Shown here one piece after another: positions 3,000 to 62,196 of a stretch of DNA of 64,000 nt. How positions within the stretch are numbered: the first letter of the stretch is position 1; every line of letters begins with the position of its first letter. Below the pieces are notes generated by a model. The model worked only from the letters and a program-made list of their open reading frames with translations. It had not been told where the DNA came from and did no database searches. Source of the stretch: Branchiostoma floridae (taxonomy: Eukaryota; Chordata; Leptocardii; Amphioxiformes; Branchiostomatidae); NCBI RefSeq assembly GCF_000003815.2, contig NC_049995.1:11161248-11225247 (forward strand). Reading direction: 5' to 3'. The position numbers were made by a program, and so were the translations under genes.

Positions 3000-5900
3000 A
3001 TGGCGCAACTCAAGATTCAAGCATATCTGGATAAACACAAGATTAGCGCGCTTTTTGAGGTATGATTTATCTGTTTTTCTTTGTGGGGAGTGGGGCAGAA
3101 AAACTCCTGACCGATCCAAACATACAGGGGAGAAAAATAAATGATTCAATGCTTTAGGGAACATATCTTTTTATTGGTGGCAGTCAATGAAAGGGGCTCC
3201 TCCAAGCAAATAAGTAAACATGGTGCAACATGGTTATTACAGACATGATTTTGACTTCATAATTTTTAAGGGTATCGACTGGCTGTGGTTCAAGGTAAAG
3301 ATTCAAGGTAAAGATAATTTTTAGCTTCATGAAATAGTTGCATACAGCAAGCTGCTCACAAATTATCTTGTATGTATAATTTGTTTTGCTACTAGTAGCT
3401 ACTAGTAGGTACCTATTTTCACAAGAGTCAAGTAAGGATGTGGGTGTAAAGTGTTTTCCCAATGGGACCAGCTAGAGATTAGAAACCAAGATCTCTAGAT
3501 TCTGACAGAACCACCTAACCAGACTTTAATAGTATGTCAACATCCAAATTCATGGAGCAACTTCCAGCTCCCCTGGCTGAAAAAAATCCTGTGGGTAGGC
3601 ATACCTGTTGGGGACAAGCTGAATGTTGTTGGCAAGCTACCTGAATGGGAGTCCGTATGGCGCATTCGGCAGCACGTTTGACTCAGTCCCAGAAGGTCCC
3701 GAGTTCAAACCCCGCCATGTCACTGATCTTGTGCCCGTGGGAAAGACACTTTACACAACTTTCCTCACTTCACTCAAGTGAAAAATGAGTATATAGGCTA
3801 CAAAGGTCTTCAGCAAGTTGAAGTTGGTAGCCTCAAAATGAAAGAAGAAGAAGAAGTGGTAGAAGGACTGGTGGTTGGGTATCAGGACAATTCCCCGTCC
3901 TACCTTTTCCCCGTCTATGTGGACATTTCCCCGTCGTGTTATGTCGGTGTTAGTATATTGCCCTCCAGTGGTTGTTGGGAGGGAGTCACCACATGCACAC
4001 CACATATTTGATAATATGATATGTCATGTTTTCCCCTCCAGGAGATGATGAGTAAACTGATCCAGGAGCAGCCGGAGGAACCGCTGCCTTACCTCAGCAG
4101 GATGATAGACAGGAAGTGGGAGAAGATCAGGCCAAAGGTGAGTCAGACAGGGAACAGATCAGTAAAAGTTATAGGTAAAGGTAGTTCCAATAGAATTTTT
4201 GTTATGCTGTAAGGGTACTACTGTGCCTTTCCTAAAGACATGAGCCTGGACACCAAGTATAGCCAGGAATTCCAGGAATCAAACCCATGACATCTCAATC
4301 TCCTGTCTGATGTCTTGAGTACAGTATTTGAAAGTTAAGCCCAACCCTCTCCTTCCACTGCCTTTTACCTCATTAACCAAAGTCAATTTTTACACCTGGG
4401 TGGAGTGACAAAAGTCGTGTTAGATGCCTTTTCCAGGAACCAGGAATACTAGGAATCAAACCAGTGGCAACCTCATGTCAGCCAGCCTAGCTACTCGACT
4501 AGTCAATCAGTGTTTGAGAATATTCCAAACATTACGTATCAAACTTTACTATTGCTTATTACCATATGAACATATAAAAACACACATTCAAGTAGATGTC
4601 AGATGAGTGGTAATGTCCCAATACTGGTAAATTATTTGTGTGAACCTCATGAATAATGAATTAGTACAAGAAAGCGTCATTGCCCATGACATAAACATTG
4701 TAATAGATATAGTGAGTAGAGTGCTTGTCTATTGTGCTATATAATTGTCAATGAATTATTCATAGAACCATGACTCAACAACAGCAATCAATCTTTATTG
4801 CACAACAATTGTAATGGGTACATTATATGGCAAGTTCTAGAGCAGCACTTGTACAAGACATCAAGGCTAATGCATGTATGTATACAATTGCTTTCCTAAG
4901 GGCACAAGATCGGTGACATGCCATGATTCAAACCTGGGACCATTTGGTTATGAGCCGAACACTCTGCTGTTGTGCCACATGACCCAACTACAATAAGATT
5001 CTTTAATGAGGCATTGTTAGTCAAAGAACGACTGTAAAGATGGGATCATAGTGTGATATAGATTATGAAATATCCATTTGTTTTTTCCTCAGAGATCTAG
5101 AGAGAACTCTCCAGCTAGGATGAGAACTGCCCCAAGTCCCTCAGCTCTGCGCAAGTCCATGCCAGCAGGTGCTGCAACATGGGCTGGAAATAGTAAGTAC
5201 TCACCCCTATATCTGAATGAAATAATCCTGCACCTGTTTACATTGACTGCATTTTGGAACGTTCTATTTGCATGCAAGGGGAAAATTGTTTGTAATCAGT
5301 TTCTAAAAGCATTCACGTAACTCTATTTTTATCGTTTTTAAAGTTGGCATGGTAATTTTGCATTTGTGCTTAATGGTACTAACACCACAAGGTATTCTTT
5401 TACCATATTTTCTCGATTAAAGTATGCACCTAAATTGAAATATGCACTTCCGATTTGGGGCAAGTCTGAGAGAACTTCTTCTCTGCCAATCTTGATAAAT
5501 TCAAATTTATGATGTTTTCTTGCCGAGGGTAATTTAGAAGATCAGGACATCTATACAAAGTCCTTCAAATTTGAAAAAAAATACTTTGTGGCACTGGCAT
5601 TGTCTCTACAAACTTGAATGTGAAATGCCACGGTGACCGCAAATTACAAAATCATTTAAAAAATAGAAGAAATATTGTATATGAAAACAACAAGTCAATT
5701 TTTTGCATCCTCCCTAATACTGTAGCAATACCTGGTCTATTTGAGGTCCTATCCACCTATAAAACCTCAACTAAAGTATGCAGCCAGATTTTGGCAAGAA
5801 CTTGCCACACCTTTCAAAGTTTGCAAAGTCTTAAAACTTTGTATAAAAAAAGAGTGTATTCTAATCGAGAAAATATAGTACGTCACCAATGCACATCCTG

Positions 5901-8900
5901 TTTCTGTACTAACAATGTCCCGCCATAGGCGAGGGAGCGGTGGCTAAGGATCGGGAGTATGACCGTCCGTGGCTGACTAACGCCAAACGGTCAAGGTCAA
6001 AGGGCAGGTCGGGGGTGGAAGGTCATGATAACATCAGGCCAGGTTGGTGGAGGGGTGTCGGTTTCTCTCGCTATGTTTTCACGCCTTCTCACCCACTTTT
6101 TCATCCCTTTGTAATGCTAGTTCACCTTTATCCGTGGGGTAACCTATACATCTTAAAAGCAGTGTATTCAGGGATATCAAGTCAGTGTACAGAGGTTTCA
6201 AATGGTAATATTTTCAAAATACTGCAGTTTGGTAGCACAGTAACCATACATCGACTTGATTTTAAAATCAATGGATATAGGTTACCCCGCAGAAGTGAAC
6301 TAGTGTTACGTTCACTGGCACTCTTTCACTCACATGCTTACTCATTTTTTCAATTCACCAGTGATTGAATTGTTTATATCCTGGACAGGTTGCAAAAGTT
6401 TGACTCTGATTTTGACTAAACTATAGTTTATGCAGTCATTTATGTTGGTTGCTTTTTTGAATGCATGGGCCTTTTGTATAATTGGTAGGGTTAAAGAAAT
6501 ATCTTTGAATGGATGGGTGGATGGAAGGCTGGATGGATGGATGGATGGAAGGATGAGTGAATGGATAGAGGGAGAGATGGATGGATGGATGGAAGGGTGG
6601 ATGGATAGAGGGAGGGATGGAAGGGTGGATGGATAGAAGGATGGATGAATGAATGGATGTAAAGAAGGAAGGAAGGAAAGAAGGATGGTAGGAAGGAAGG
6701 GAGGAAGAATTTGAGGACTCATCTTTGGTCTCCTTTCACAGAGAAGAAAGATAAGGCCACCTGGAACCCCAACACACAAAAGGTCCCAACAGGTGACTTT
6801 GATGAACTCTTCAAGTTGACCAAAGGTTCGAAGGGGATGAAGGGCAGCAAGTCTGTGGACTTTGGTGAGTCTCTGCTGATATTCATGTGCTATTTATTGA
6901 TAAGTATTATTCTCATGTTACTTTCTTTTGTTTGTCAACATAGTACCATCAATCATAACCTCAAACCTCTGTATGTACAAGAAATCAGCACACTTGATGT
7001 CCCTTCAAAACATAGGTGACTGGTGCAACTCCTATAAAGATTGAACCAAGGATTGAACTGGGGTCTCCCAGTTGCCAAGTACTGTAAATACATTTAAGTT
7101 CGCAGAGATTTGATTTTGCAGAAGTAGGAAAAAGGACTGTTTGCAGTGGTTTTAAATTCGTGGTAGTACCATACAATGTAGTCTCTTACTGCCATGGAAA
7201 AATGTTTGCGGTGAATTTAGGTTCATGGTAAATTTGCAATGCAAAAACTGCGAACATATAACCACCGCAAAAATTTCTACGTTTACAGTTAATTGGAAGC
7301 AGTATCTCAACTTTGTGGCTGGTACCAGTTGAGCTATAGGGACATCCCAAAGAAATAAGATATAGCAATAGAATTGTCTTATTTTGTACCAATAAGGTTT
7401 TCCAACAACTGTTAAAAGATGTCCCTGATAATTCCCCTCTATACCACAGCCATGCTGCAGGCCCAACTAGGGAAGGACGTAGATGAATCCCTCAGGCACA
7501 GTCAGCCCATCTACTATGGACAGCCCAGAGACCAGGCACTGAGGGAGGAGGACAGCCTGAGTTCCGAGCTGAAGGCCCCCATGTCATCCAGGTCTGGTGA
7601 AGAGGAGAGCAGCTCTGTGGACCTGTAAGTATCCCCCTTTGGAAAAATATGTTAGGATTGTCGCGACCTTAAAAGTCAAGCTGAAGCCTTTGTATGTTCG
7701 TCCTCATTTTTGTAGGGTCTGCCGCTAACAGCCCAAAGCTGCCTAGGCAGACACATGTAATGACTTGTCTCTTTGATCATAGTCAAAGTCAAACCCTTGT
7801 GTACTTTTTTGCTAACGGAAATGTCATTAAACTAAGCTCAGTCTACTAGCAAATTTGCCACTCAAAATGCAGAAAATGGCATTTCAGAGCGTCAAAATTT
7901 CAGACTTCCCTTGTGACGCCTTGCTCCTTTGGTGGTCAACATAGTGAAAATATGTTGGACGTCACACCTCCAAAACCCTGGTGTGTTTTTTCGTTAATAG
8001 TCTACCAGCTACCAGCAAGAAAAATGTAACACCCCTATACAGAGAGCTACAGACAGTAATGCCCCACCACAGATATCATGGTTTGTCCCCGTACAGAGAG
8101 TTGCGTACAGTAAAATCCCACAACAGGTTTAATGGTTTGTCCCCTTACAGAGATCTGCATACAGTTAAGCCCCACCACAGGTTTAATGGTTTGTCCCCTT
8201 ACAGAGAGCTGCGTACAGTAAAGCCCCACTACAGGTTTGTCCCGTTACAGAGAGTTGCGTACAGTAAAGCTTCACCACATATTTAATGTTTTTTCTTCTT
8301 TCAGAGAGCTGCGGACAGTTAAGCCCCACCAACACTCGTTACAACACAAGCGACAGCTGGAGGCCATCGTGAAACAGAAGGAGACGGCGTCGGACAGTGG
8401 GCTGGAGGAACCTGAGGATGATGAGGAGTATGAGGAGGGGCTGGAGCTGCTAGGTAATAGGTCATAGGGCATAGGTCAAAGCACATGGAGTCAAGGGGCA
8501 TAGGGCAAAGATGTGATTAAAGCCTCATAAATGTTGATTGTGATTGAAGTACACTTGAATTGGCAATTGACAACATCATTCATCAAATGATTATAAGCTA
8601 GCCTGGTTTTACAGAAAATGTTAAAAGTTTCAACAAAAAAGTAGTGTAGTACTACAGTAGTATTGTACAATCATGTTACAATGTATGTCTAACTTGTACT
8701 TTTGCGATTTCTTCTTTTAGAGAATGCAGATGACTTAGCAAAGGAAGGTGTCACCAATGTAGTTCAATCAGGGCACAAAATCAGCTCGGTAAGTTTGGGT
8801 TGTGTTTTATATCCAAATTTTGGAGCTAGGACTCAAAGAGGGGATTTTTTTGGTCTTCCCATATTCTTATTATTTGTGACATCACAGAGTACAAATATTT

Positions 8901-11900
8901 GATTTTAACTGAGTGATTTTTTGAAGAAAAAAATATAGGGTACAAATTTTCCTCATATTCAAAAATTGTTTTACCCTATCTTTGATATTATACCTACAGC
9001 ATTTGATTTTGTAAGTTTTACCTTGATATTTTATGAGAACATGAAGATAATTAAACTAAAAAAACTGTCTTGTATTGGATGTTTCTTCCTCCAGTCTTTA
9101 AGAAGACCGCCGACTCCTGAACCTCAAGTTAAGGTCACCATCTGTGGTAGATGTGCAAGGTGTGTGTCTTCATTCATCAGTTGTAAAGCTGAAAGTTGCT
9201 ATGCAATATTTTCACTAAAATCTTTTCTCAGAATTTAAAGTAAGATGGGCTCTAGAATATTGGTTGAATTTATTAGTTGATATCTAAAATTGTATGGTAA
9301 GTGTATGTTTAATATCCTAAGTTTTAATACCTGTTCTCAATAATAATTTTGTTAGAATTAACTTGTTTGAATAGCAAGATTCTTTGTACACAACCAGGTG
9401 TTTTATTCAACCAATGTTTTGGTAACAGTCTATCACCTTCCTCAGCCCATCTGTAAGCAGCGCCACCTATGCTGCAGTACAATGTGAACCAGTCAGAATT
9501 GCTCTGAAGAAGGTGACAGACGGTTGATTAAAATACTCGGTTGTGTACAATAATTAAATGACTTACCAACCTCATGAAACTATTCCCAGATGAACACATT
9601 TTTTTATGAACTGATGAACTGTCTTTTTTGGCACTGTCTATATATTGTCCAGCTTTCCCCTTGGTTCATATCAACAGTTTTCAGATAATCTATATTCATT
9701 TCAAGCATTAATTTGTATCAGCAACAGTCTATGGTTGTTCACATTACGATCCACATTAAAAAATGTGTTCTACTAACTGATACTAAACCCCCCTACCTGT
9801 TTTGTCTTTTAAAACACTAGCACTGGTCTGGCAGCAAACTCTGAAAGGTACATGCAGCAGTAAAGCCAACCTTCCAAACTTAGATGTAGATGTAGGAAGG
9901 GTTGGAGGAAAAAGCTGGCCAGTCCATACTGTGGAAGAACCTGTCTGGTATGGTTTCGGGGACGAAAAAGACCTTTTCTGCATGTAATTATGCCCCCTTA
10001 CAGAAAGTGATGGAATTGCAATGGGTATGGTGTGTTCTCGTATATTACAACATAAAGCACATTGATTGGCTATGGCGGTTCAAGTTGGGATATACATTGT
10101 ACAGGAACTCACCATACAGATTGCAATTTGATTGCTTTCTGCAAGAGGGCACAACTACACACAGGTTTTTCTGCTGTTAGGACTGGACAGCTTTTTCCGA
10201 CAACCCACTGTAGGAATATCTGATATGTATTATTTTTGGCAGTAACCTATTAGCAGTCCTTGTATATTAGTTAAACTAACAGTTTTTCTTACTGTCAAAT
10301 TTTTATCTATTTTTATCTATATTTTACAGATTACTGAGTGAAGACACCAGTGTTGTGCGTGAGTGTACAGCTGTATTTTCACACTTATTTGGGTTTTAAA
10401 GTCTCATGCTGATACACATATACGTGGTAAAATAGATGTCTTATGTTTTTAACAATGCCTCTGTTATGATGTATTAACTCATAGGCAAGACTGGATAAAC
10501 CTCAATGACATGGTACAGTTACATATTCACACCTACTCATCCCCCATTAAAGTAATATTCTTCCTAAAAAAAATAATGTACATAAAATAGAATCTGATGT
10601 GTCACTATGTACTACATAGTAGCAGTACATGTGTGACTAGATGGCATGTAAAAAAGGTCTTGGTCCTATCTGTACACTTGGTACTCTAACACAAGGTGTA
10701 ACTTAATGTCCTCTAAAACAAAGTTGGCTCACTACTATATCATGTATGTGTAACTGTCTCAAAGGTTGAGTTTGTAACTTAACTGAAGTCAGACTTCAGT
10801 GGTACATTGTGTCTTTTGTCCATGTTAATTGTTTTTCCCTTGTATACATGTACGTCACATGTTTTAGCATGTTGTACTAATGGCACCCCCCTCCCTCTCC
10901 CCTTCCCTTAAGCCAATGGGGAAACGCCTGACTCCGACTCAGAAGTCAGTGGGAGAGGTACTCCTAAAGCCGGTGTGTAATGACATTCTGTAATACTAGC
11001 CTTTCTGTCATGCCTACTCGTACAACTGTATCATACTTTTTCTGTAACACTGGTTCACCTTTATCTATATCCGTTGTTAAAGTAAAATGGTATTTAGGAT
11101 TGAGTCGATGAAAGGTGGTTTAGAAATGCAATACAGTCAAACCTGTATTAGGGGCCACCTCTACAGAGGGGCCACCTGTCCATAGTGGCCACTTTTTGTC
11201 TGTCCCTTGGGTATTTTATCTACAAGTTGCCACCTCTATACAGAGGCCACCTGTCTATAGTGGCCAAATTTGTCCGGTCCCTTGAGTGGCAGCTATAGAC
11301 AGGTTTGACTGTATTTTCAAAATACAATCGATGAATGGTGGTTTCAAATTGCAACGTTTTCAAAATATTGCGATTTCAAACCACGACCGTTGACTCAATC
11401 CCTAAATACTTTGTGTATAAAAACAACGGATATAGGTTACTCCATGGATAAAGATGAACTTATTAAGTAGTATTACATCATGTATTTGTTTTACTTTACA
11501 ATCGCTCTCCCACACTCTCTATCCAGTATGTTGTCTGTTCTCCGTACACATGTACATTGTATGATTTGAAAATCATTCTCTAATGTCTTTACTTAGTCAA
11601 TATCAAGTTGTTCCCATTTTCACTTGAATGTTGGACAAACTTGTAACTATAAACTTGATTTGGAACAACTCAAGCTGATCATTGTTGTGACTTTCAGATT
11701 ACTGTTTATGACTGGCTAACATACATATCAGCAAATTGCTATGAATTATAGAACATGTTTGAAAAACTAATGACTAGGGCTGTGTACCTAAATACCCGTA
11801 CCTGTACCGTACCTAAAAAATTGTTTAGGTACGCTTCCGGACCTAAACATCTGTGTACCTGTACCTGTACCTAAACAAATTAAATCACTATTAAACACTA

Positions 11901-14900
11901 CTTTTTAAGGCTGCTGGACAAGTAAATCCCGAATCCACAATGACAGTGGTGATAATCTTGCAGTTGAAACTTAAGAAAACTTGCAAAGAAATTGTTTTGA
12001 GATTCAAGTATGTAATTGCCCATACAAAGATGACAATTTATCACTAGAAAAGACAGTTACCTACATGTTTAAGTTACATATACTTGGTTAAACTTTTTTA
12101 GGTACAGGTGCAGGTATGGACCTGTACCTAAACCCGTGTACCTGTACCTGTACCTGAAAATTTGTTTAGGTACACAGCCCTACTAATGACCCCCTCCCCA
12201 CCTACCCAGCATTCCCACCATTGCTGACTGATGATGAATTTGAGAGTGTGTCACAAGTCGAGGGGCCTGTGAGTATATAGAACCCTATAGATTTGTTATT
12301 GACTTATTTTGTCAAAGATTTTGTTCGACAGATCCAACAGCATGGTACAAATCCAAGGACTTCCATTGAATGCTGGTTGAAGTGTTAATATTGCTTCTCT
12401 ATGTTGCAGAGAGCCCCTGTGTGGTATGCAGAAGAGTCAGAGAGTAAGTATATTATATGCACATGAAATACAACATGGCGTACCGGTATTCCATATCACC
12501 GGAGGTATCAGCCTGACTGCGGACATGATTGCCAAAAGACCAGCATCTATTATCATAATACCGGTACGTTTACGACGATTTCTCTAGCCATAATGATTTG
12601 ACACATTGTCAACGCATCATTTTCTCCAGTTACATGTTGCTGCTATAGGTTACCCTTGCCACTTCTTCTGTGTAACTTTTCTGCCACTCTTGTCCTGCTA
12701 AAAGCGTAATATTGTAATTGTAACACGCCGCGGAATTACACGGCGAACGGCGAAAGGCAATCTGGCCCACAGGAGGGCAGGGACCAAGGGGGATGCAGAA
12801 TACAACGTGTTGCATTTCATTTAGGACATACTCATCCGTGAAAACGCACATTTCAATGCAAGATGTACAATGTACCTTTATGTTATGACTGGGAGATCTA
12901 CTGCTATCACCCACTCAGGCTTCCATAGAATCATTCAAATTCACTTGGCATGTACCACTGGCAATAATTGGAATATTGTATTCAGACCTGGGAATTGATT
13001 TTGATAAAACTTGTAAGTTGTGCATATATTGTACATATGACACTGGTCTAATCTGTGTGGGCTCAGATATAGTCATTGTCAGTATGCATTACCCTTGTGC
13101 TTAAAAAAACAGAAGCCAGTTAAAAGTGCTAAATCTAACTACTTGTCTTCTGTACTGTTGTTTTTATTGGGGGTGAAAGTCAATGGTTTTGTCCTTTCCA
13201 GCTGAAGTGTCCAGGAAAGGAGCCCACATGTTAACTAAGGACCCCCGACCTGTCAAGGGCAGACCCATGTTCAGGTGAGTGGGAACATTCATTTGTCAGT
13301 TTCAGTAGAAGTAAAGCAAGTTAACCTGTATCTCCATGGGGTAACCTATATCCGTTGTATTTTAAAACTGGTTATTAGGGATATCAATTACAATGTTTGG
13401 AATATATTGCAGTTTGAGACCACCCTCTGTTGACCCTAAAAATCCTGCTTTTATATGCAATGGATATACATGTAGGTTATTCCATGGATAAAGGTAAACT
13501 AGCATTACATGTCATGTATATAAGAGTTGTCGAATTTGGACCATTAATTGCATAGGTACTGTAACTGACCCATTGGAGTTTGCCTGACTGAGATGAAAAC
13601 TAGATTCTGCTTAACCCTTAGTAAGTAAGTTGTTGTCTATTTTTCCACCTCTTTTCTTTTAAATGTAATGCTTGTTCACCTTTATCCACTGGGTAATATT
13701 TATCGTTTTTTTTCTTCAAGGATATCAAGTCTCAATGTAGTAGCTCTCAAATGATTACATGTAGCTACGAGTCTGTTTTCATGCTTTCATATATCATTCT
13801 GTAATCACGAAGTAGATCTTGATTACTTAGTATGTTTGGGTTTTGATGTCACTGTATAGGTCATGTACTCCATACTTCAGCCATCAAAATTAAGGATAGA
13901 AACATCTTTAACCACACCTTTCATTACCTCTCCAGCCCTGAGCCCCACCAGAAGCCTTTAGCCCTGCCTGCCCCGCCCACTAGTGGTGAGAAGCAGACAC
14001 GCCCCACCAGTACCAGTGCCTTGACTGTCACTCTGAAGGACGACCTGTCTGACTTTGGGGACAGGAAAACCAAATCAACTCGAGCCTTCGCCCTGCCTAA
14101 AGATGACTCTGAGGTAATCAACGATTCTTGTGTTTTGATTGTAGTCATTTTTTTATCCAGTATCTTAGGAACGAGCTTTCAGATGTTGAAATCAAACTAG
14201 CTGGAGCCTTTGCCCTACCTAAAGATGACTACGAGGTAACCAATGATTCTTGTGTTTTGTTTGTATTGTTTTCACCATTTCTTCATCCAGTCTCTTAGGA
14301 ACAAGCCCTCAGACTTTGAATACAGGAGAACCAAACCAGCTCAAGTTTTTGCCCTGCCTAAACATGATTCTTACCAACAATTCTTGTGTTTTGTCATTTG
14401 TTTTAACCACTTCTAATTCTACATCCAGTCTTTTGAGGAAGAAGCTTTCAGACTTTGGGTAGCTAAAAAATGGTACAACCTTCCAATATCTGCTTGGAGA
14501 ATATCACTCTGTATATGAATATTTACTGTAAAATTCACTGTCTGTGCATATATGAAGAGTACAATGTTGATATTATATAGATTTCCCTCCCACAGGATGA
14601 AGTGGTAGATCCCATGTCTGCCCTACCCCCCAGCCTGAGTGGTCGCCCCTGGTCCCCACCCCCTGGGTCTGACTGTGCCAGTGTAGGTGCAGATGTTACT
14701 GTTCTGTGGTGGCATACTCACAGTCTTTATTTTGCAGCTTTTATAACTACAGTTCTACTGATGCTGCACAATTTGGCATGTTTGTACTTGCAGTAACTTT
14801 CCATTTTTTTCTACAGTTCCACTGGTGTCTCACCTGCAAATATTTACAATTTTCATTTGCAGTCGTCAGAAACTTAAGTGTTTGTTTGTTAAGTACTTAT

Positions 14901-15716
14901 TATATACAGATTCATTTTAAAAAGTTTTATGCCACTGTTCCTACACTTTGTGTTCCACCTTTTGTTTAGCATGTGTTTTTTTGCCATAGTGACATCACTT
15001 TTCTTTCAGTATAGTAAGCAGGGTAATCTTCTTCATGTAGATTCATGGTAATCTTCTACATATGCTTCAGGCTATTTACTGTGCTGTAGTCATAAAATTG
15101 TGTTGCTTCTCTTGTTGTTTGTTAGGATGAAAACGGTACGGTGAAGTCAGCCACGGCTCTGTCACTGGGTGGGCGTTCCTGGCATGCCCCGCCTGAAACA
15201 GACGCAGAAAGCGTGGACTTCGATAGAGACAGAGGTGAGTTGTCAGCTACACAGGCTACCACAGCCGCAAAAAGGCTAAGGAACTGAGTATGGGATCTGA
15301 ATCCCCCAGTAGCCATGTTGGAGTACAACTTACAGCTGTAAGTACTCCAATATGGTGCAATTGATGTCCTGTGAAAATGCCTGACACAGGTATAGCTTAG
15401 TCACCAATATACAGTCAAATGCTTCCTGTAAAGACACACATTTTTAGAGGGATGGTGAGCTTTTTCGGTGAACAATAAGTCATGATGTTTTGATTGTATT
15501 GCCATACTTTTCTTGTAGTAGCAATGCCTAACAAGCCTTCAGCATAGTAATGTTCAGTGGTGGCTTTTACACAATCTTACATATCACATTGTAGAGGGCT
15601 GTCCTATACTTAAGCCTGTAAGCCATAACTTTGCCCTGGTGTTTGGTTCATGCTTTATTTCCTTTCCTGTAGTTGGCAGAGTCACAGGTTTTCGGGAGCA
15701 CAAAAGAAGTAGGTGA
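3000..15716 (+). CDS. C8orf34: C8orf34 (VEST1) orthologue, RIIa/DPY-30-type docking-domain protein
   Basis: Eighteen-exon model of about 535 aa, close to the 538 aa I recall for human C8orf34: 3000-3059, 4042-4137, 5093-5192, 5929-6042, 6742-6864, 7450-7624, 8305-8453, 8721-8788, 9095-9159, 10330-10358, 10913-10957, 12210-12268, 12410-12443, 13202-13274, 13936-14113, 14596-14682, 15126-15234, 15673-15716. All introns are GT-AG and phases agree. Residues 5-45 ([19 protein letters not shown]) form the RIIa dimerisation/docking-like helices; in the family this fold binds amphipathic anchoring helices. Other family landmarks seen are [10 protein letters not shown] (exon 4), FDELFKL (exon 5) and VTICGRCAR with a CxxC pair (exon 9). 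The start is the first ATG after a 5'UTR. Exons 16 and 17 resemble each other. The last exon is uncertain: reading through exon 18 gives TGA at 15714, while a splice to an exon at 16209 (stop 16272-16274) is also possible. Exon 11 may extend to 10972. The molecular role is unknown. Confidence 0.88.
3640..3858 (+). mobile_element. tRNA-derived SINE in C8orf34 intron 1
   Basis: Shows a tRNA-like head with a B-box-like GAGTTCAAACCCC at about 3701-3713, then a body (CTTGTGCCCGTGGGAAAGAC, AAAATGAGTATATAGGCTAC) and an AAGAAGAAG tail. The tail sequence (GGCTAC..TTCAGCAAGTTGAAG..GGTAGCCTCAAA) recurs near 49240-49310, supporting a dispersed family. Confidence 0.7.
4190..5000 (-). mobile_element. Degenerate SINE fragments in C8orf34 intron 2
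   Basis: Three short stretches (about 4205-4340, 4424-4500, 4790-4985) carry reverse-complement SINE-like phrases such as CCTTTCCTAAAGACA, CTTTCCTAAGGGCACAAG and GATTCAAACCTGGGACC (an inverted B box). Boundaries are vague. Confidence 0.45.
5401..5880. mobile_element. MITE with 28-bp TIRs and TA ends, C8orf34 intron 3
   Basis: Left end TACCATATTTTCTCGATTAA and right end (complement) TACTATATTTTCTCGATTAG are inverted repeats about 480 bp apart. They fit a Tc1/mariner/pogo-type non-autonomous element. It fills most of intron 3 and ends 48 bp before exon 4. Confidence 0.75.
6112..6308. mobile_element. MITE family copy with GTTCACCTTTATCC ends
   Basis: Inverted ends: TAATGCTAGTTCACCTTTAT at 6112 and ..GAAGTGAACTAGTGTTA ending at 6308. 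The subterminal GGGGTAACCTATA is mirrored by TATAGGTTACCCC. Other copies are at 11043-11476, 13314-13507 and a fragment at about 13665-13760. Confidence 0.7.
6508..6710. repeat. GGAT-rich microsatellite
   Basis: Imperfect (GGAT)n grading into GGAA/GGGA repeats, ending about 30 bp before C8orf34 exon 5 (6742). Frames open through it are repeat artefacts. Confidence 0.9.
7080..7291. mobile_element. Foldback MITE, TACTGTAAAT family
   Basis: Starts TACTGTAAATACATTTAAGT and ends ..CTACGTTTACAGTTA, with internal TTCG-rich inverted modules. A better-preserved copy is at 22818-23029 in an ELOA intron. Confidence 0.75.
8023..8304 (+). repeat. 54-bp tandem repeat of the exon 7 splice acceptor (C8orf34)
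   Basis: Five copies of (CCCCTTACAG)AGAGCTGCGTACAGTAAAGC precede the true exon 7 acceptor. AG dinucleotides fall at 8042, 8096, 8150, 8204, 8250 and 8304, a 54-bp period except for one 46-bp step. Each copy has a pyrimidine tract plus AG followed by sequence like the exon start. From the 8250 copy the frame stays open into exon 7. Confidence 0.9.
9380..9560. mobile_element. Imperfect foldback repeat in C8orf34 intron 9
   Basis: TTGTACACAACCAGGTGTTT at about 9394 is inverted as ..AATACTCGGTTGTGTACAA near 9532-9550. Inner arms CACCTTCCTCAG and GAAGAAGGTGACAGACGGTT also pair. The phrase CAGTCAGAATTG..GAGACAGACGGT-like recurs near 60290, so this is a dispersed family. Confidence 0.55.
10359..10912. 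other. Intron 10 of the C8orf34 orthologue, nothing recognised
   Basis: AT-rich intron of 554 bp without a repeat, RNA gene or coding similarity that I can identify. Confidence 0.4.
11043..11476. mobile_element. MITE (GTTCACCTTTATC family) interrupted by a second MITE
   Basis: The left part starts near 11043 (GGTTCACCTTTATCTATATC) and the right part ends near 11476 (GGATAAAGATGAAC). The halves are separated by the 178-bp element at 11134-11311; removing it joins GAAATGCAATA to TTTTCAAAATAC. Belongs to the family at 6112-6308 and 13314-13507. Confidence 0.75.
11134..11311. mobile_element. Tc1/mariner-like MITE (CAGTCAAACCTGT ends) nested in another MITE
   Basis: Inverted ends CAGTCAAACCTGTATTAG and CTATAGACAGGTTTGACTG with TA on both flanks (11132-11133, 11312-11313). 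Internal GGCCACCTCTACAGAGG-type repeats are typical of this widespread family. Being nested, it is younger than its host element. Confidence 0.85.
11775..12182. mobile_element. hAT-type MITE next to C8orf34 exon 12
   Basis: Termini TAGGGCTGTGTACCTAAA and TTTAGGTACACAGCCCTA, subterminal GTACCTGTACCTG repeats, and a perfect 8-bp target duplication CTAATGAC at 11767-11774 and 12183-12190. Length 408 bp; no coding capacity. The right target duplication leads directly into the C-rich tract of the exon 12 acceptor (AG at 12208-12209). Confidence 0.9.
12630..12815. repeat. Interspersed repeat fragment
   Basis: Contains GGAGGGCAGGGACCAAGGGG and GATGCAGAATAC, matching GGAGGGCTGGGACCGAGGG and GATGCAGAATAC of the foldback at 62286-62379. 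Family unknown. Confidence 0.5.
13314..13507. mobile_element. MITE copy (GTTCACCTTTATCC family), C8orf34 intron 14
   Basis: Left end AAGTTAACCTGTATCTCCAT, right end CCATGGATAAAGGTAAACTA..ATTA; same family as 6112-6308. A 5' fragment of another copy follows at about 13665-13760 (TAATGCTTGTTCACCTTTAT). Confidence 0.65.
14114..14463 (+). repeat. Tandem copies of the C8orf34 exon 15 end and its donor
   Basis: Three further, progressively degraded copies of the 3' part of exon 15 plus flanking intron follow the exon: 14161-14235, 14291-about 14357, 14429-14463 (period about 130 bp). Shared text includes TTCAGA.TTTG, TTTGCCCTRCCTAAA and AATGATTCTTGTGTTTTG; each copy keeps a CATCCAG- or ATCCAG-type acceptor. 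Confidence 0.85.
14161..14235 (+). other. Candidate cassette exon 15b of the C8orf34 orthologue
   Basis: Bounded by ttttttatccag and gtaacc, 75 nt, phase 0 on both sides. It is fully open and encodes [20 protein letters not shown], a diverged copy of the last 25 residues of exon 15. Skipping or including it keeps the frame. Whether it is used is unknown. Confidence 0.45.
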
Positions 15717-16984
15717 TGTGTGTGTGTGTATGTGCATCATGATAATACCCCTGTCACACAGTAGAAAAATCTATTTGCCAGTGCATCTGCAAGCTCTAAA
15801 TGTCATTTTTTTACAGTAAAATGGATGGTGTTCTGTTGATCATCACTCAGTCTAGAGATCGGTCAATGTTCACAGGTCGCCAAGCTCCGAGACTCTCGAT
15901 TTTAAAATCAGGGGACCTTCTGGCAATCAACATATATGTCCAAAACTGTGTGACAAGGGGTATGACATGTAGAACTGACTAGTAATGTTACCTATGTCCT
16001 AACTCATTATTTTGCATGAACAATGCCTAGATTTTGAGCATTTATTTCAATGCATGGCATCTTTGTTTCTGTTTGCTTTGTTTTGCTTTGCTATGGATAA
16101 CAGCATGGTGTCTACATGTATCTTTGATGATTTGTGTAACAAAACAAATGAATTTTGTAAGATTTCAGGTGTTTTGTTGAAATCAATGTTTATTTGTTTG
16201 TATTGCAGGACCATGACAAGAACATTGCTAGTTACCAAATACAAGGTGAAAACTCTGCACCAATGACGGAATAATCTACACTTAAACTTTAATATCAAGT
16301 CATGTAGTCCACCTTTATATTTAAAAAAAATCTAGATAGTAGAAATCAGATGTGGCCTTACTTTCTACTTCCAACCAAACACTGATATTTCTTATGGCTG
16401 TCTATAAAATTTGATATTAAGTAGGTTTTAGATAGGGGACATTTAAAATTTTTTAGATCATTTGCTGCACATTATTATGTTGAATAATGTGGTGGTCTCT
16501 GCAGTACAAGAAATATTGTTACAATATATGCAAAACATCTATTTGAATTAAGTGCTGTCACGACTATAATATTTGTATATGTAGCACTCTACGCAAGCTG
16601 TGTATACTGAATGTTATTAATGTAATTACATTGTAGTAATAGGGCTAAGGGAAAAATGTTGTCAGCTATCAGTTCCCAGCAAAAATTGATGACCCTAGCC
16701 TTTTTTTTCATCTTTATTTTACATTGTTAAACTTCATTTGTTCGATCAGTTTGCCAACACATAACAAGAATATTGTGTAGGACGACGATTGTAACGCATA
16801 ACACAATTGATGTTCCCAGGCCTAGATACAACCAGTGTGAAGTTACATTTTTGCTTCAGAACTATTTCTGTTAACATAACAGCAACTGTGAGAGAATAGC
16901 AAATATATTTGGTAATGTTGTGTCCTACTGTTGTAAACAAATAAGACATTTTGAAATTATTTTGATCCTTATGTTTGCTTTGTG

Positions 16985-19009: not shown

Positions 19010-19470
19010 TACAGCTGTGCCACATGCAGCCGAAATACCTGCAAGGTCCCCATAAATACCACAGCTATAACGCCTGCTTGGTACCACAGCTGTAACACCT
19101 GTGAGGGGTCCTTGTAAATGCCACAGCTGTAACAGCTGCGAGGTCCCTGTAAATACCACAGCTGTAACACCTGTGAGGGGTCCTTGTAAATACCACAGCT
19201 GTAACACCTGTGAGGTCCTTGTAAATACCACAGCTGTAACACCTGTGAGGGGTCCTTGTAAATACCACAGCTGTAACAGCTGCAAGGTCCCTGTAAATAC
19301 CACAGCTGTAATATCTGCAACAGCCCTGTAAATACCACAGCTGTAACAACTGCAGGGTTCTTTTAAGTACCACAGCTGTACCACCAGAATAACCTTGTAA
19401 ATGCTACAGCTAAAACACCTGCAAGGTTTTAATTGACACCAAGGCTGTAACACCTGAAAGGCCCCCATAA
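19010..19470. repeat. 34-37-bp minisatellite with CAGCTG in each unit, ELOA 3' flank
   Basis: About eleven units of TGTAAATACCACAGCTGTAA plus a variable CACCTGTGAGGGGTCC part. It begins about 20 bp beyond the ELOA stop and is probably in the ELOA 3'UTR. Open frames in both directions over it are repeat artefacts. Confidence 0.9.
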
Positions 19471-19487
19471 ACCCCCCAGCTGCAGGT

Positions 19488-22400
19488 TCACCTCCTGAAG
19501 GGGCACCTGAAGGGTGCCAGGTACTTCCCTTTCATCAGCTTCATGGCCTTCTGCATCATGGGGGCTGGCTTGGCAGCTGGGAGAGGAAACAGGTGGGAAA
19601 CATTTCAACTAAATACAGATACAAAATGTATGTGTATGTATCACTTTATTTTATTACTCATTGATTATGCAGGTATAAAGAAGTTGATTTAAATGGTAGT
19701 AAGAAATGTGTTAAGAATAGTGTATAAATATACAGGAAGAGATCAGACCTTACGCAAACCAACTAAACTCACAACGAAGAAAAGAAGAAATAGAAGCAAG
19801 CTGTGCAAGTTCAAGATCAATCTACCTGAAAATTGAATGACATACATTTTGTATCTCATTGACAATGTGTTTATGTGGTTTAGATACTACTACTACTAAA
19901 AGCCAACTTGTAAAAATCAAAGTTCCTTCCAAAGCATCTGCGACTATGAAGACCAGATGACTATTAACTCTCCCTACCTTTAGCCTGCCTACCCCCACTA
20001 CCACTGCTGGGTGTAGAACTGGTCCCAGAGTTGAGCACGTCACCACCACTGTTGTAGGAACTACTGGAGCCATGGCTACTGAATACGTACAACAAGACGA
20101 CTATAAACTCTCCCCCTACCTTTAGCCTGCCTACCCCCACCACTGCTACTGCTGGCTGTAGAACTGGTCCCAGAGTTGAGCACATCACCACCACTGCTGT
20201 AGGAACTACTGGAGCCATGGCTACTGGAGGAGCCGGCTGGTCGAATCTTCTTCACTATTGGCACCTTCCTGGACACAAACATGTGAAATATTACATTGTT
20301 AGTATGAAGAACCAGGGATGAGTATGGGGCATATGATATAATCAATGCAAGTTGGAATACTATGAATGCAAAATAAAAGTTTATAGAATATTGTCCAGAG
20401 ACTGCAAAATACAGTTTTATCTTGCATTCCTGTGTACGAATAAAAGTCACTCGACATTTAACTCAAAGGGTTTAAGACAATGCATTAGACCCACACTCCC
20501 TGTATCATCTAAAGCAGTTATCTCACTGGACTGAGTCAAATTGTGAAAGGCATTCACAAATTGGAAAAAAATCTGCCATTGGAATATACCACAAACTTGC
20601 ACAAAATGACAAACATCCTTCTATTGCAGTGACGTTTTAATGAATGTTTAATGATCATAGTACATTTTTTAAGAAACTGGCAACACTGCAATTTCCAATA
20701 AAGTTAATATTTTGGATAGAAAGTGAGAATGTGACATTGCAAGCATGGCCATTTTATTTATAAGCTTATCTGGGCATGTCAGTGTGACGCAATGAAAAAT
20801 TGGCAAACATTCCCAAAAAGTTGGCACAGTTTCCACACCCAATTTGGCATTAATAATAAGTCCAGCAGAAGATGTCACAGTATCCCACCTTGGTCTGGAC
20901 AGACTGCTGACAGGTTTGTGCTGTGCGTGCGGTCCTGCTGTGCCCAGTTTCTCCTGCTTCCTCCTCACATCACGTGGTGGCTTCACGGGACCGTCTAGGT
21001 ACGCCAGCTTGGTCGTACGTCCTGCGGAGATATGGTATTAGCCAACAACCATGCTCTTACGTTATAGCCTATATAGGTTATATCATTTCCCCCACTGAAC
21101 CATACAGTTTGATATAACTTTGGGAACTTCTCATACTATTTTCTAAAAACTTTCTTTGCTCATATAATTGTGTAATCTCATGTGACACTTGCTATCTGCA
21201 TGCTGTTGGTTGTGGTGCCTAGTGATACATATGGAAGATAGTTTCCTTGCTATTTCAATAGCAGGGTATAAGTTGCTAGCCCTTTCCCTTTTTAATGTAC
21301 TTGAGGTACCTCCTCAAAGATGGGACTCCCATTTTACGTCCCTTCCGAAAGATGGGTGTAGCCCCCAACAAGATGGACAGACACCAGGATCTCCCAGCTA
21401 CCAACTGCGAAAACTGCTCAGAGTAGTGTCACAGGGACATCTCATCACATGGAAAAGTTTGTGGGAGGATATTTTGGTTAGAGGAAAATTATGACTGTAA
21501 AACTATGTTCGTTCCTTCATTTTCTGCATTGTACCTGAGTTCTTATATAATATAGTTTGACATTTGAGTATTAGTCTATTGTGGAAAAGTCTGCTTAATA
21601 CTGACCTTGAGGTTTCCCTGCCCAGGCTGCGCTGACCTTGGCTGTGATGCTCTTCAGTCTCTCCTCCCGCTCCTCATGTTTCCTCTGTGGGACAAAAACA
21701 TCAATTCACAACAATCCTCATCATTAACTTGAAACTTCATGGGTGTTGGTGGGAGTCATTCTGGATTAAAGTTGAACGGTAACTTCCAACACAAAAATTG
21801 CCCAAAAGCAGTTTCACAAGCAACTGGAAACGGTCAGATATTTCAGGTAGTATCCAATACTGTTCAGACATATGAATAGCACTGAGAAATTTATATTCCT
21901 TATGGGTTTTGACAAACCAAACATAGCTAAACCCATACAGTCCTACATTTTCACCATTACCAAGAAACGAGAAGAAGTTGAACTTCTGTGCTAGATTAGA
22001 TCTGTGATGCTTTTACACGTGTATATATATATGTTTTGTCTTGTTGTGACCTGTAATTAGCTCGGTTGGGCAAAAATGTACAATAAAGCTCTTCAGTCAT
22101 TCAATGTTCATAAGTGACACGGACAAAATATAGTGTCACTGACAAAAGATAGTGGATGCTATCTGAAACCTCTGACTGTTTCCGAAATCATATCGAGACC
22201 AGTTGCTTGAGTAACTGCTATTTGGCACAATTTCATATTACCTGGATGTCTAAAATTGGTTACTAATTCCTTGACAAAAACTGGAGCAAGACAAGAAAGA
22301 ATTTTTGTGTTGGAAATTACTGTAAAAGTTCTAAACAAACTTAGATCCAGAATTCTAAATGCTATCACAAAGTGTAACAATTTTTGAAATTCGAATTGAG

Positions 22401-25400
22401 TACTGACCAGGTACAGTTCTCTCCAGGCCTCGAATGAATCCTGGTCCCTCTGTGCATTCCTGAAGTCCCTGTTGCAGTGCATCTGCCATAGGTGGTCTGT
22501 ATCCTCCATTAGGTACTGTGAAACAACAAGATCATAGTGTATACATGTCAGTAAGAGCAGCAGGGCTCTGAATATGATTTTACAGCCAGGTTGGCTCAGT
22601 GGGCAACCTCAGCAAAAAAATAGGTTGTCTACATGACCATTTTAGGTTGCTGCAAATTCAAGTGAATTCTCATACTGTAAGGTTTTCAATTGCTTAACGT
22701 AAGTTTAGTTAACATGAGTTTACAGATTGTTCATGGAAAATTTACACTGAAAAAAACGTCCGGAGGAAGAATCCCTCAGAGAGCCTTGAGTGCCACAAAT
22801 TTGGGTATTTTTCATTGTACTGTAAATGCATTTAAGTTCGCGGGGATTTAATTTCGCGGTAGCGGGAAAAAGGTCTTTTCGCGGTGGATTTAAGTTCACG
22901 GTAACACCATAGACTGCAGTCTAATACCATAATAGAAAAATGTTCGCGGTGGTTTTAAGTTCGCGTTGAAGTGGTCACCGCGAAAACCGCGAACATTAAT
23001 CCACCGCGAACATTTCTGCATTTACAGTATTGCATTCTGCTATGATTAATGATTGGAACATTGATTTTGATCCTTGGTGTACACAATGTGAAAATTTTCC
23101 CTGTCTTGACCAGGCTTGGGCGCAAACTTGGACCATTGGCTCCATGGAATTTGAACCTAAAGTTGCAAGTGATAGGGTGCACAGACCTCTACACCACTGA
23201 TATAAAAAAGTCATGTCTTAAGAAGAGCTGTACTTACAGGGTTCTGTTCCTCCAGGTAACACAGCTGCTCAGGTGTGCACTTGTCAAGGACAGGCTTGAT
23301 GATGTCATAAGGAACCCCGCCTAACTCCTCAAGGGCTGTGGCACAATCATAGAAAGGTTAACAGTGAAGACCAAGGCCTCCTACAATGTGTATTTCTAAA
23401 ATGGTCAAGAATATGCATGTATGTATAAGGTTTTCTGATTATGGATTGGGACAGAGATTTTTCATCTTTTTGTAACAGGCTACACCTCAATGGAGCATAT
23501 TTTAGTAAACCCTTCAGATTGTTTTGAAAACAAAAGAAAAGATCTCTGCACTGTTGAACGATGTTTAGCAGTTACATGCACAAATGACAGACATTTCTTC
23601 TTAACATCAGACCGACTTACCATCAATGTTGTCACACAGGATCTGCATACAGCTGTCAAACAGACTAGGGACCTCTGTACAAGGGGTAGAAAACACTGGT
23701 CAGAGCTTAGTGTGCTGTGGATCTACTTCTTATTTCCAGTAACATGCTGTTGTAAATAGCCCACTCTCATTCACTTACTTTCCGGTTTATTGTCTGTCAT
23801 ATGAGGGTCAGACATGAAATGTTCATGCAAATACCGCTGTCCGTGGCTGTTGGCAAAAGTTGGTTGGACAACTGTAAGTGTGATTTAATCAGGCTATCAT
23901 TTAAAAAAAATAGCCACAAAAGGCATGATAGCCATAATCAAGTGGTAGCCAGCATGAATATTGGCAACAAAAACAGTAGACATGTAGCACAGGGTCAGTT
24001 GGATTCCTTGCTGTCAGGGTTCTGAATCTAATATATAAATCAATCTAGTCCTTACAAGCTTTTGGCATGATTTAAAACACTGAACCTGTGAGTGTGATAC
24101 ATACAACACTAAATAGCAACTGCAAAATACACAACAAAAAGTTATAATAACTTTACTATACTACTACGTAATGAAATCAGTAGCGTCTGAACACCTGTAC
24201 ATGTGTACTTACCTCTCAGGTAATGTGACTTGCGACCTGAGTACACCTGTGTGCGGGTGTTCTTTTGGAAGGCTGCAAACTCTGCATCTTCTAATCCATG
24301 GCCTGGAGAGGAGTGGTACAAACAGCAGGTTATATACATGTATGTGTAGTACACTAGTCCTACACGTACACTAGTACTACACTAGTACGTGTAGTATACT
24401 AATCCCACATATTATAATTAGTGAGAATATAAAACCATTATAATTATCATCCAGCTGTTCTTGAGTTACCTTGGTGACCAACACACATGCACAGGTACAT
24501 AGAGCTCCTTGGTGGCTTGAGTAGTTGTATTTCACTGCCATTTCATTGGTGAACTACAAAGCCGTGAACTTCATGCCTGTAGATGGACCCTCCACTGCCT
24601 GACCCATATGTACACTGTCTAATGTAAAACAAGACCTACCCACAGACCAAATATCAAGACAATCCATATAAAGGCATTATGCTGACAGATGTGCCCACGC
24701 CAACCCGCACGCACGCATGCTTGCCCGCACGCACGCTTGCCCACACGCATGCAGGCATGCACGCATGCAGACATGCAAGTAAGCACACACAAATGCACGC
24801 ACACATGCATGCACACACACACACACACACTGATAAAAACATTGGCTTGAACTTGTTGAAGATGATATCATAAAACCCTGACAAAAGTAAAAAAAAAGTG
24901 ACCTTTCTTCTTGTGAGGAGACATGTCCAGGTCAGGTACAGGCAGACGGAGAGGTCGGTAGTTAGGCTGGATCTCAGGCAGACTGACTGGGTTGTCTGGT
25001 ACGGTCAGGGCTGGGTCCGATATCCTCTGCTAAAGGGATCAAATACATGGTGTTAGACTTTCCGTATCTGTATCTGTATTACCAGTATATAACTGCCCTT
25101 TGACACTACTTATGCAGGCACATGGCATGGCAGCAGCTGGTTATATTACACTGAAAGAGCTGTCACACCTAACTTTTGCACATCTACATTTGTAGCTGCA
25201 TGCATTATCTAAAGTTGTCCAATGAGGATGCCCATACTGTAGTTGTTGGTGACAAGTTCCATTCTACAAAAGCAACAATAGGAAAATGATTTTAAAACAC
25301 TTAACTTACTAATAGTAATTCTAATTAAATTTACTTGATAACTCTGGCACTTCAAGGTATAACAATCTCTTGTTCTTTGTTCTTTAATTCTCAGCTGGAT

Positions 25401-29134: not shown

Positions 29135-29400
29135 GTTGCCTTCTCCACCGCTGACCCGGAAGTAGACGGTGATGCAAGAACGCTGATGACGTCAAACGCG
29201 CGAAATTCGACTCCTCGAATTTACGACCCCGTGAATTAAAAGATCAGGGGAGCAAAAATAAAAAGTGTGATTTTTTTGTGACACTGGTCAAAAATATTTT
29301 TCAAAGTGGATGTTTGTGGATGTTTGACGTTTTGTTGCGCGGGTGTATTTTGTTCGCGTTTGGTTGCGGTTGGATCAGCTGATTTAAATGGCCAGCCAGG
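29135..29400. promoter_or_regulatory. Probable bidirectional promoter ELOA / Kelch gene
   Basis: GC- and CpG-richer than the surroundings, lying between the ELOA start codon and a likely plus-strand first exon ending at 29520. Head-to-head spacing of a few hundred bases is typical of shared promoters. Individual sites were not resolved. Confidence 0.45.
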
Positions 29401-33777: not shown

Positions 33778-33798
33778 GCTTTGCTGCTTGGAACCACC

Positions 33799-43622: not shown

Positions 43623-46600
43623 TTACTCTAGTGGCAACAATGCACGAAACACTGCCTCCCGAAACTCCGCCCATCTCCTGTCCTTCTGTCCTTGGGAGGA
43701 GTCAAAGAACTCCTCATTATCTATGACAGTACACCCCTTAAACTCCCGTGGGATAGGGTAATGTTTGTACACCACTGCCGCCACACACCCATGGTCCCTC
43801 TCCGTCACCAGTCGTCGTGTCTTCTCAACATATTGTAGGCAATTCCTAGAAGACAAAATATCTAAGATTATCACACACGTACTAGTATGAAGTACAGTAG
43901 TCACAGATAAATTCATCCTGTGAACAACCAAACTTGCCCTCTCATCCTAGGAAGCCTGTCATCTTCTTAGCTAACAAGATAAGCGTGTTCACCATTCGTT
44001 GTACGCATGCGCAGCAACATGAATAGTGGGTAATATCATGTCAAAGGTAAAGGCATGTGATTAATAAACAAAACATGCCTGAACATTGTTATGCAAATCA
44101 AGACAACAGGGCTTGAAATACTGGGTGCATGTGACGGAGCTGTGCACCCAATTATTTTCTGTCTGTGGGTGCACAGGGTGCACCCAAATATTTTTTTGGG
44201 TTTATGTAGGTAAAGATATCAAAATATACTAGCAGACATCATATTCTTGACATCTAAGTGTTAGAAAGATAATAAAAATGTCTGTCATGGTACTTGTTTA
44301 AGAATTTGATAGCATGTAACTAAGTTTTGTTATTAGGTTTTTCTGACATTCTACTTAAATTCAAGTGGTACACCCAAATTTTTTTGTGTGCACCCAATTT
44401 TTTAAGCTGGGTGCACCAGTGCAGCTAATCCCAAAAATGAATTTTGAGCCTTGAGGTCTCATAACACAGTAATTATCCGCGACCCCCGTCCCCAAAAGTA
44501 GTTCGGGTTAAAATAGTGCATCGCGGTACTTGCAAAGGCCGTATTCATTCTTCCGTGCACGACAGCGAGGTGGAATCTATGGTGAATAGTAGAGGAATAC
44601 ATCGGTGTTCATACTGTATAAGTTGGATTACGTCGCTTTTTCGGCCGGCGGGAATTTGCGCCTTGATATGTTACCGGCACTTCCTGTTCGCCGCCTGCAG
44701 TTCCATGACCTCCGCTGGGGGTCAAATCAAAGTGTCTGTTATAGAAAAACGAGCCGGCAAATCTATGCTCATCTTCAGATATTTTGTAGCTTGTACCCTC
44801 AACTTCAACATACTAAATTCTTGTGAATTGTATCTGCACCCTACTATAGGTTTTGAGTCGTCGAACCACCTCACTTTGGGGTCCTTAACCATGTAAATCC
44901 CCATACCCGAAAAACTGTGTTCTGAGACCTTCATCCACAGCGTGAATTCCCCAGGGACGGACAAGCACATTAAATTTGACCGATATATTAGTAATTGACC
45001 TCGGCTGACTTGAACTGTAACATTTTCGTTACCGTCTGACCCGCCGTTACCATGGCAACGGCCGCCTAGACCGTTCCCTATGCTTAAGTATAGGACTTAG
45101 TGCGGTCTAAAGCCCGCTCGACTCCCCCCCCCCCTTTTTCCGCTCTAAAAAAGACAAACCCCCAACCCCAATCACTCAGAACGGTAGAATGTGGTCTGGC
45201 AAGCTCCTTATAACAGAAAAAGTCAACCAGAATATCAAGTTTGTTGAGATAATGAGACCAATAAGCGGCCCCTCAGATAGTCCTTGTACAGTGCCGACAC
45301 CTGTGCTAGGCGCCAAAGTGCAAAGTTGGCCATATCTCAGGAACCATTTGGATTTCTGCTCTAAAATTTGGTACGGTTTTGTATCTTGACTAGTTTTATT
45401 GTATGAACGTAAAGAAATCCAAGGTCAAGTTGGCTTAAGGTCTCATAACACAGTAATTATCCGCGACCCCCGTCCCCAAAAGTAGTTCGGGTTAAAATAG
45501 TGCATCGCGGTACTTGCAAAGGCCGTATTCATTCTTCCGTGCACGACAGCGATATAACGACAAGTGATCTATGACAGGTCAAAAGACTACTTACATGTAC
45601 TTTGTCAAGGGGAAACAACCTGGTCCCTAATTTCTGTTCATGCCAAATGCTTTTGATACAACCTCAGGAAAGTCTGTTTCCATTTGCTAATATTTCTAAA
45701 AAAAATAAAGTTTTGTTGTGTTTTGTAATGCATTAGCTTGCCCATCGTACAATTGTAAGACAAATGCACAGATGACATTACCTGGCGTAGGTCAAGGTTA
45801 AGACATGCAGAACACAGCACGATCGAGACAGACATCTTTCAATGTTATCCATCGGGAACAACCCGGGCTCAAAGTCTCTAGATTCATAACAGCAATGCAG
45901 ACCACAGTCCACCTCCATCAACTTTACCAACTCTTCCGCATGGGCCTGGTCCTTGGGATCATACATGACAAACACATTGTAGTGACAACCGTGGCCACCA
46001 GATTTGTAGTGACAACTGTGACCACCAGATGGCGCTACTGAAGCATGGAATGTGTCGCGATAGACATCACTTGAGATGACTTCACTGATGTCTGCTTGGA
46101 TTCGAGCAACAGCCAGATTGCATTCTGTTAAATGCTGTTTGTCCACGGTGATGCCAAAAGCTGTAAGAAACGTTCGGTACACTTTTGCTTCGCAGAAGTC
46201 ATTGTTTTTGTCACACGTGTCCACCAACTGGCTGAGATACTCTTGTACTTGATCATCTGTACAGACAGATGATGGTAAGGGATAGCATTTCAGCACTGGT
46301 AGATATCTTAACAGTGTAGTAGCGACTTCTCCTGTTGGATTCTTCTCTCGTCCACAGATAAGGTCGCAGACTGATGACTGTATGGGTACGGCTTGTGTCA
46401 ATTCTTTCACACACATCTCGAGCACTTTACACAATAGAACTTTCCCGCGGGCGATGTCGCCCTGATCGAGTAAGTACAGCCCCCACAGCTCCAGAGCATT
46501 TCGAGCACACTTTCGGAACTGTGGCGACCGATCGCCCATGCGGAGTGCCTGCTCCAAAATGCTGAACACTTCCAAAGGATCCGTGCCAAGAGAGTACTTG

Positions 46601-48481: not shown

Positions 48482-62196
<13,715 letters not shown>

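Follow-up and report, generated by a model that had tools for sequence, protein, structure and literature searches.

Mirage-type minisatellites on seven splice junctions of four neighbouring amphioxus genes

Tandem repeats that lie over exon-intron boundaries are known in amphioxus as 'mirage' minisatellites (PMC3087553, PMC3902484; these and the other published works below are cited as the available excerpts of each present them). They were found in Adh3 of both B. floridae and B. lanceolatum (Canestro, 2002) and in other genes, as cited by PMC3087553, and that paper describes mirages in two globin genes, BflGb6, where the array sits at an acceptor, and BflGb9, where it sits at a donor. Two further mirages lie in PGBD5, and troponin C is mentioned in the same work (PMC3902484), whose authors judged a predicted JGI exon to be a decoy copy. 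Mirages do not seem to disturb splicing, as seen by RT-PCR for the globins, with normal splicing also published for Adh3, and they have been proposed as a possible source of introns (PMC3087553). In BflGb6 the inner copies are homogenised and the boundary copy is excluded from this, a property that is not defining for all mirages. Length polymorphism and somatic instability are further traits that go with the mirage kind. Within these excerpts mirages are reported gene by gene, and among the matches listed for the open-licence literature no title announces a genome-wide mirage count.

Repeats that carry splice sites have also been described in connection with intron gain. Gain by tandem duplication of an AGGT-containing segment (Rogers 1989; Hellsten 2011; potato RdRp) is recounted in PMC4974935. 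In Drosophila, where new introns have weaker sites, a few recently acquired introns are reported to carry short direct repeats at their splice sites (PMC2809761), and the same paper recounts such repeats for recently acquired introns of Daphnia (Li 2009).

Here we analyse a window of 64 kb, by which we mean the whole stretch of amphioxus DNA under study, and describe seven tandem arrays that belong to the mirage minisatellites and so to an already known phenomenon. Like the published examples, they are tandem repeats spanning the boundary at donors or acceptors, with many copies that bear GT or AG and with the copies on the intron side, and the units are of similar size (tens to about 160 bp in the known mirages, 25-145 bp here). 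What differs is that seven of them occur in four neighbouring genes of a single 64-kb stretch and that the homogenisation of inner copies described for BflGb6 is not seen. With intron gain by AGGT duplication, as in the work of Rogers and Hellsten, the arrays share tandem copies bearing splice sites; however, the units here take in intron sequence beside a boundary that already exists, and that intron contains the copies. An origin from an exonic AGGT segment was found for none of the seven arrays, every unit containing intron sequence next to an existing donor or acceptor. Set beside the gene-by-gene reports in the excerpts at hand, seven of 108 junctions in one window suggest that mirages may be common.

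Gene models and duplicated junctions

Exon models were built with a small, purpose-written dynamic-programming gene finder and then finished by hand. The gene finder uses general splice-site weights without training on Branchiostoma, and the final exon list was hand-picked from the first exon chains, the reading frames and human PRPF6 and ELOA. Decoy copies were called as exons in the first exon chains, a practical warning about simple exon predictors that is in line with the judgement of the PGBD5 authors on a predicted JGI exon (PMC3902484); short-read aligners, too, can invent junctions between repeats (PMC10632439).

The PRPF6 model (48482-62196, plus strand, 20 exons) matches PRPF6 from spliceosome structures over residues 8-945 (3jcr_G, 1618 bits). 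The Kelch gene (33799-42686, plus strand, 11 exons) is KLHL22-like, its best solved relative being Kelch-like protein 22 (E 2e-88), and the ELOA model (19487-29137, minus strand, 13 exons) matches Elongin-A (8oev_M, E 4e-67, with a query lacking most of exon 3). The fourth gene (2979-15234, plus strand) matches Pfam DUF5586 (E 2.7e-9), which we take to stand for C8orf34, the name given in the original prediction; the exons of this C8orf34-like gene are provisional, and the reading phase is inconsistent across them. A fifth gene (48039-45781, minus strand) is modelled as one long exon with no junction, and presumably resembles the IFIT proteins.

To find duplicated junctions, the 80 bases around each of the 108 modelled junctions of the first four genes were aligned with 1.5 kb on either side. 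Seven junctions have nearby tandem copies, with scores of 41-78, the next best junction scoring 19: the donors of PRPF6 exons 9 and 17, of Kelch exons 5 and 6, of ELOA exon 12 and of the C8orf34-like exon ending at 14113, and one acceptor, that at 8305 in the C8orf34-like gene. The score is high downstream for all six donors and upstream for the single acceptor, which in our gene models makes the copies intronic, with the authentic junction as the outermost one. With the window set to 50, 80 or 120 bases and the reach varied between 400 and 1500, three further settings again rank these seven first, at 30-110. Each of these settings also brought one or two extra junctions barely above the control maximum, at 16-21 and far under the seven (the acceptors of Kelch exon 10 at 16-17, of PRPF6 exon 12 at 21 and of C8orf34-like exon 9 at 20).

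In one of the control sets (half 40, reach 1500) the maximum was 80. The control was then repeated on 10826 mismatched pairs of junction and neighbourhood, with pairs on the same strand excluded when nearer to each other than the reach, and only three pairs exceeded 20.1 (60.3 twice and 27.8). In all three the junction is one of the PRPF6 or Kelch mirages and the neighbourhood comes from its own gene, presumably reflecting the far end of that junction's own array. The original prediction had placed at least seven tandem arrays on exon-intron junctions in four genes; the seven that it lists are all present, each spanning a modelled junction. Its exon numbers agree with ours for Kelch exons 5 and 6 and PRPF6 exons 9 and 17, while its ELOA exon 11 is exon 12 in the present model and its C8orf34 exons 7 and 15 are exons 6 and 11 of the provisional model, at array positions that are unchanged.

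The array units of 25, 54, 63, 82, about 102-120, about 122-138 and 145 bp are of minisatellite size, and those at donors extend 15 to 107 bases into the exon. At the donor of PRPF6 exon 17 (58822-59023), a compound 102/120/47-bp array runs from 58948 to 60018 on the plus strand (TRF; score 78) and has GT in 11 of the 12 intronic copies found. TRF resolves within it 251-bp blocks that are 99% alike, and these near-perfect blocks may be miscounted in the assembly. The donor of PRPF6 exon 9 (52975-53167) carries a 63/64-bp array at 53147-53281 (plus strand; TRF, sequence and junction scan), with one intronic copy counted. Both Kelch arrays are on the plus strand as well: that of 82 bp at the donor of exon 5 (37603-37785) occupies 37711-38349 (score 69; TRF reports 37821-38349) and has GT in all six intronic copies found, and that of 25 bp at the donor of exon 6 (38533-38646) occupies 38635-38909 (TRF, sequence and junction scan) and has GT in six of nine. 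ELOA exon 12 (20120-20268) carries a 145-bp tandem duplication on its donor (19955-20226, minus strand; TRF, sequence and junction scan), in which the final 107 exon bases are duplicated and the one intronic copy has its donor at 19977.

The remaining two arrays lie on the plus strand in the C8orf34-like gene. At the donor of the exon 13936-14113, a degenerate array of about 122-138 bp (14031-14460; repeat comparison, score 50) has about three copies, at 82% and 75% identity. TRF misses this array at 14.03-14.46 kb, which repeat comparison detects clearly; its third copy, at 14.36 kb, is more degenerate, lacks the GT and does not figure among the 30 donor copies counted below. The acceptor of the exon 8305-8453 carries a 54-bp array (8032-8331; TRF and sequence, upstream score 41), whose 3'-most copy is the authentic acceptor, with four decoy acceptors upstream at 8097, 8151, 8205 and 8251. 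A 14-bp short array (8457-8510) begins four bases past the donor of this same exon, the one with the mirage on its acceptor. The introns that carry a mirage (median 570 bp) do not exceed the other 46 in length (median 624 bp), which disfavours simple intron growth.

Splice sites, reading frames and divergence of the copies

Copies were counted as ungapped matches at 62% identity or more. GT is present in 26 of 30 donor copies and AG in four of four acceptor copies, and the earlier statement that the copies hold a usable GT or AG is borne out, with at least one such copy in each of the seven arrays. By the general splice-site weights, which are not host-specific, 21 of the 26 GT-bearing donor copies equal or outscore their authentic donor. 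With the same general weights, all 11 GT-bearing decoy donors at PRPF6 exon 17 lie above the authentic site (5.5 against 3.7), five of six decoys at Kelch exon 5 equal it (7.3), and the only acceptor array, at 8305, has a stronger authentic site (5.9 against 2.3-4.2 for the decoys). Because decoy donors are often as strong as the authentic donor or stronger, site strength cannot explain the presumed use of the outer donor; position in the transcript and nearness to the exon can account for it.

Extension to the nearest inner site is in frame and open in two of the seven arrays. At PRPF6 exon 17 the nearest inner donor adds 120 nt, or 40 codons, and at the 8305 acceptor the nearest inner acceptor adds 54 nt, or 18 codons in a provisional frame. 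The first inner site of the other five arrays leads to a stop or a frameshift. The idea that several arrays stay in frame is accordingly right for these two and wrong for the rest, and the suggestion that the arrays supply new exons finds little support here, since five of seven first inner sites give a stop or frameshift.

Joining the exons at the outermost donor gives a gapless alignment with PRPF6 of the solved spliceosomes for both PRPF6 exons 9 and 17. Against the solved Kelch relative, the same joining is gapless for exon 5 and leaves a one-residue gap beside the junction for exon 6; ELOA exon 12 aligns with Elongin-A just loosely. For four of the seven arrays, protein homology supports the outermost copy as the probable authentic site, with the protein unchanged.

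Divergence among copies was measured in five arrays, leaving out Kelch exon 6 and the acceptor array. Exon-derived parts differ from the authentic copy at 145 of 1103 positions (13.1%) and intron-derived parts at 57 of 473 (12.1%), a similarity that should be seen in non-coding copies. Among codon positions the third stands out (0.174 against 0.120 and 0.101), which is what silent change in the authentic exon, too, would produce. At the GT itself, one of 42 positions differs, against 12-13% elsewhere in the five arrays, which could hint that decoy donors are kept, although the copies are non-independent and three of the nine copies at Kelch exon 6 have no GT. Individual copies are 1-34% different from the authentic one, six of 21 by at least 26%. 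No homogenisation of inner copies is seen in the two arrays for which more than three copies were measured: inner copies resemble one another no more than they resemble the authentic copy (0.805 against 0.839, and 0.820 against 0.885).

Placement of the arrays and competing explanations

A comparison of junction windows with all intron windows was tried as an enrichment test and rejected. At a score of at least 32 it gives 7 of 108 junction windows against 150 of 1385 intron windows, with 8 of 187 for exon windows, and so opposes enrichment; it is misleading because intron windows inside arrays are counted many times, and an array-level placement test was therefore used instead. For each array, a unit of its length was placed at random within the gene spans, without wholly coding positions and extra array copies. 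Twelve of 18 repeat blocks were kept, the dropped ones being microsatellites (6481, 50411, 61631) or outside the coding spans (221, 19011, 30601), and for block 11771 a 75-bp unit was assumed. Junctions are dense in these genes, with 106 internal junctions and coding sequence making up 8.4 of 44.5 kb of gene span (about one junction per 420 bp), so random units often land on one: a random 102-bp unit spans a junction at 27% of positions.

Seven of the 12 intragenic arrays span a junction, against 2.67 expected (P = 0.005), and without the C8orf34-like gene five of eight do so (P = 0.012). Lengthening the units 1.5-fold or 2-fold raises P to 0.03 or 0.085, and adding five non-junction arrays raises it to 0.04; the latter run covers the four short TRF arrays in gene spans below the scan threshold (3289, 8457, 22113, 24349). 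The test is post hoc, the locus having been chosen for its odd look, and the excess of junctions over random placement is suggestive, not established. Donors exceed acceptors 6 to 1 (one-sided binomial 0.06). The original prediction held that junction overlap exceeds random placement, which survives weakly in the main test and loses ground at 0.03-0.085 under the harsher settings; of the two readings it offered, tolerance fits the arrays, whereas a bias of duplication towards splice sites is not upheld by an excess this modest (P 0.005 to 0.085).

The most likely explanation for the seven mirages is that they are local tandem duplications straddling the boundary, which persist as nearly neutral while splicing still works at the outer copy. 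Slippage or an unequal exchange would duplicate a short unit of 25-145 bp across the junction, to be re-duplicated later; the exon-side copy would retain the exon and its site, and all beyond would become intron. Use of the outermost site would then yield the original mRNA, the remaining copies going with the intron, while use of an inner copy would mostly give a frameshift or stop and the RNA would be destroyed. Since the outer copy would still give the original mRNA and wrong choices mostly destroy the frame, the duplication would be near neutral and would expand and contract as minisatellites do, and so last. The arrays, where and in which direction they lie in the gene models, the divergence of the copies, the site scores and the frames are observed; that splicing uses the outermost site, that the duplications are neutral and that misspliced RNA decays is what we infer here from sequence. 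No new introns are needed to explain the gene models.

Near-neutral duplication predicts equal numbers at donors and acceptors unless splicing treats the two differently, and the count of 6 to 1 leans to donors. In donor arrays a stronger authentic site would be unneeded, because the 5'-most donor is transcribed first and adjoins the exon. In an acceptor array the outer acceptor would be transcribed last and a copied AG upstream could be taken first, a possible cause of the donor excess. The difference between donors and acceptors would in this way be tied to an idea about splicing, the first donor made against the first AG after the branch point, and if mirages are common, whether duplication prefers donors and why fewer acceptors are affected become countable questions. 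If the excess over random placement is real, neutrality by itself does not suffice to explain it.

One way to account for that excess is that a feature at 5' splice sites, such as a shared short sequence, R-loops or transcription-replication collision, starts the tandem duplication. The placement result, with or without the C8orf34-like gene, and the six donors against one acceptor speak for such targeting, as does Kelch exon 5, where the exon-side start of the unit, GAGGCCATGAACTATCA, resembles the intron sequence past the last copy, GAGGTCATGAACTTTCA, and could have primed the duplication. However, this shared sequence may equally be the edge of a last partial copy, no shared sequence as long was found at the other five donor arrays inspected, the P values weaken with longer units or added non-junction arrays, and the locus was picked for its odd appearance; we regard targeting as unlikely. 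A more sweeping version, in which a lineage-wide pull draws tandem duplication or its retention to 5' splice sites, several percent of junctions carry a mirage, introns turn over from the donor end and the genome as a whole draws new introns and exons from this pool, strikes us as similarly doubtful. AGGTCA motifs near donors were considered as duplication seeds and rejected, 46 of 53 intron starts (first 60 bases) having neither GGTCA nor TGACC.

That the copies serve as functional decoys, which bind U1, tune splicing or store alternative exons, would agree with the frequent GT, with the many decoy scores at or above the authentic site and with the open in-frame alternatives at PRPF6 exon 17 and 8305. 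We nevertheless think such a role quite improbable: exon-derived and intron-derived stretches of the copies change at much the same pace, five of the seven arrays have a first inner site that breaks the frame or follows a stop, three of the nine Kelch exon 6 copies have no GT, and the scores come from general weights and not from the host species. Least credible of all, and very improbable in our judgement, is that the arrays are artefacts of assembly or of haplotype merging. The 251-bp blocks at PRPF6 exon 17 are the kind of sequence that assemblers misjudge, and the copy number of the PGBD5 repeats differs between two assemblies, yet those repeats were confirmed by new sequence data (PMC3902484), and misassembly would not create the divergence from the authentic copy measured in the five arrays.

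Other repeats in the window

The Kelch gene also contains a repeat unlike the arrays. A 14-nt direct repeat flanks its intron 1 (34039-34052 and 34885-34898, plus strand), lying across both splice sites with 13 of 14 bases identical; it is the best of 53 introns and stands above all 2756 mismatched donor-acceptor pairs. The donor of this intron is the weakest in the modelled set, with a score of -3.3 by the general weights. In both the repeat across its splice sites and the weak donor, Kelch intron 1 is like some newly gained introns reported in Daphnia and Drosophila, whereas the seven mirage arrays are of another kind than introns gained with direct repeats.

Several further repeats occur in the window. 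A 35/72-bp array at 19082-19427 begins about 60 bases past the ELOA stop, off the coding junctions and probably in the 3' untranslated region of ELOA. Between ELOA and the Kelch gene, a compound 54/41-bp array at 30628-31276 could sit on an unseen UTR junction. ELOA intron 2 holds two copies of a repeat of about 276 bp (27711-28206) that by eye resembles a dispersed mobile-element fragment. Tandem repeats also occur within coding sequence, with units of 30 bp at 26460-26529 in ELOA exon 3 and of 27 bp at 45977-46030 in the IFIT-like exon, both multiples of three. Finally, at 40772-41400 in the Kelch gene, the last bases of exon 9 and the first of exon 10 have GTACATCGG(A/C)GG in common, which gives YIGGGYIGG across the intron, a weak signal with a score of 16-17.
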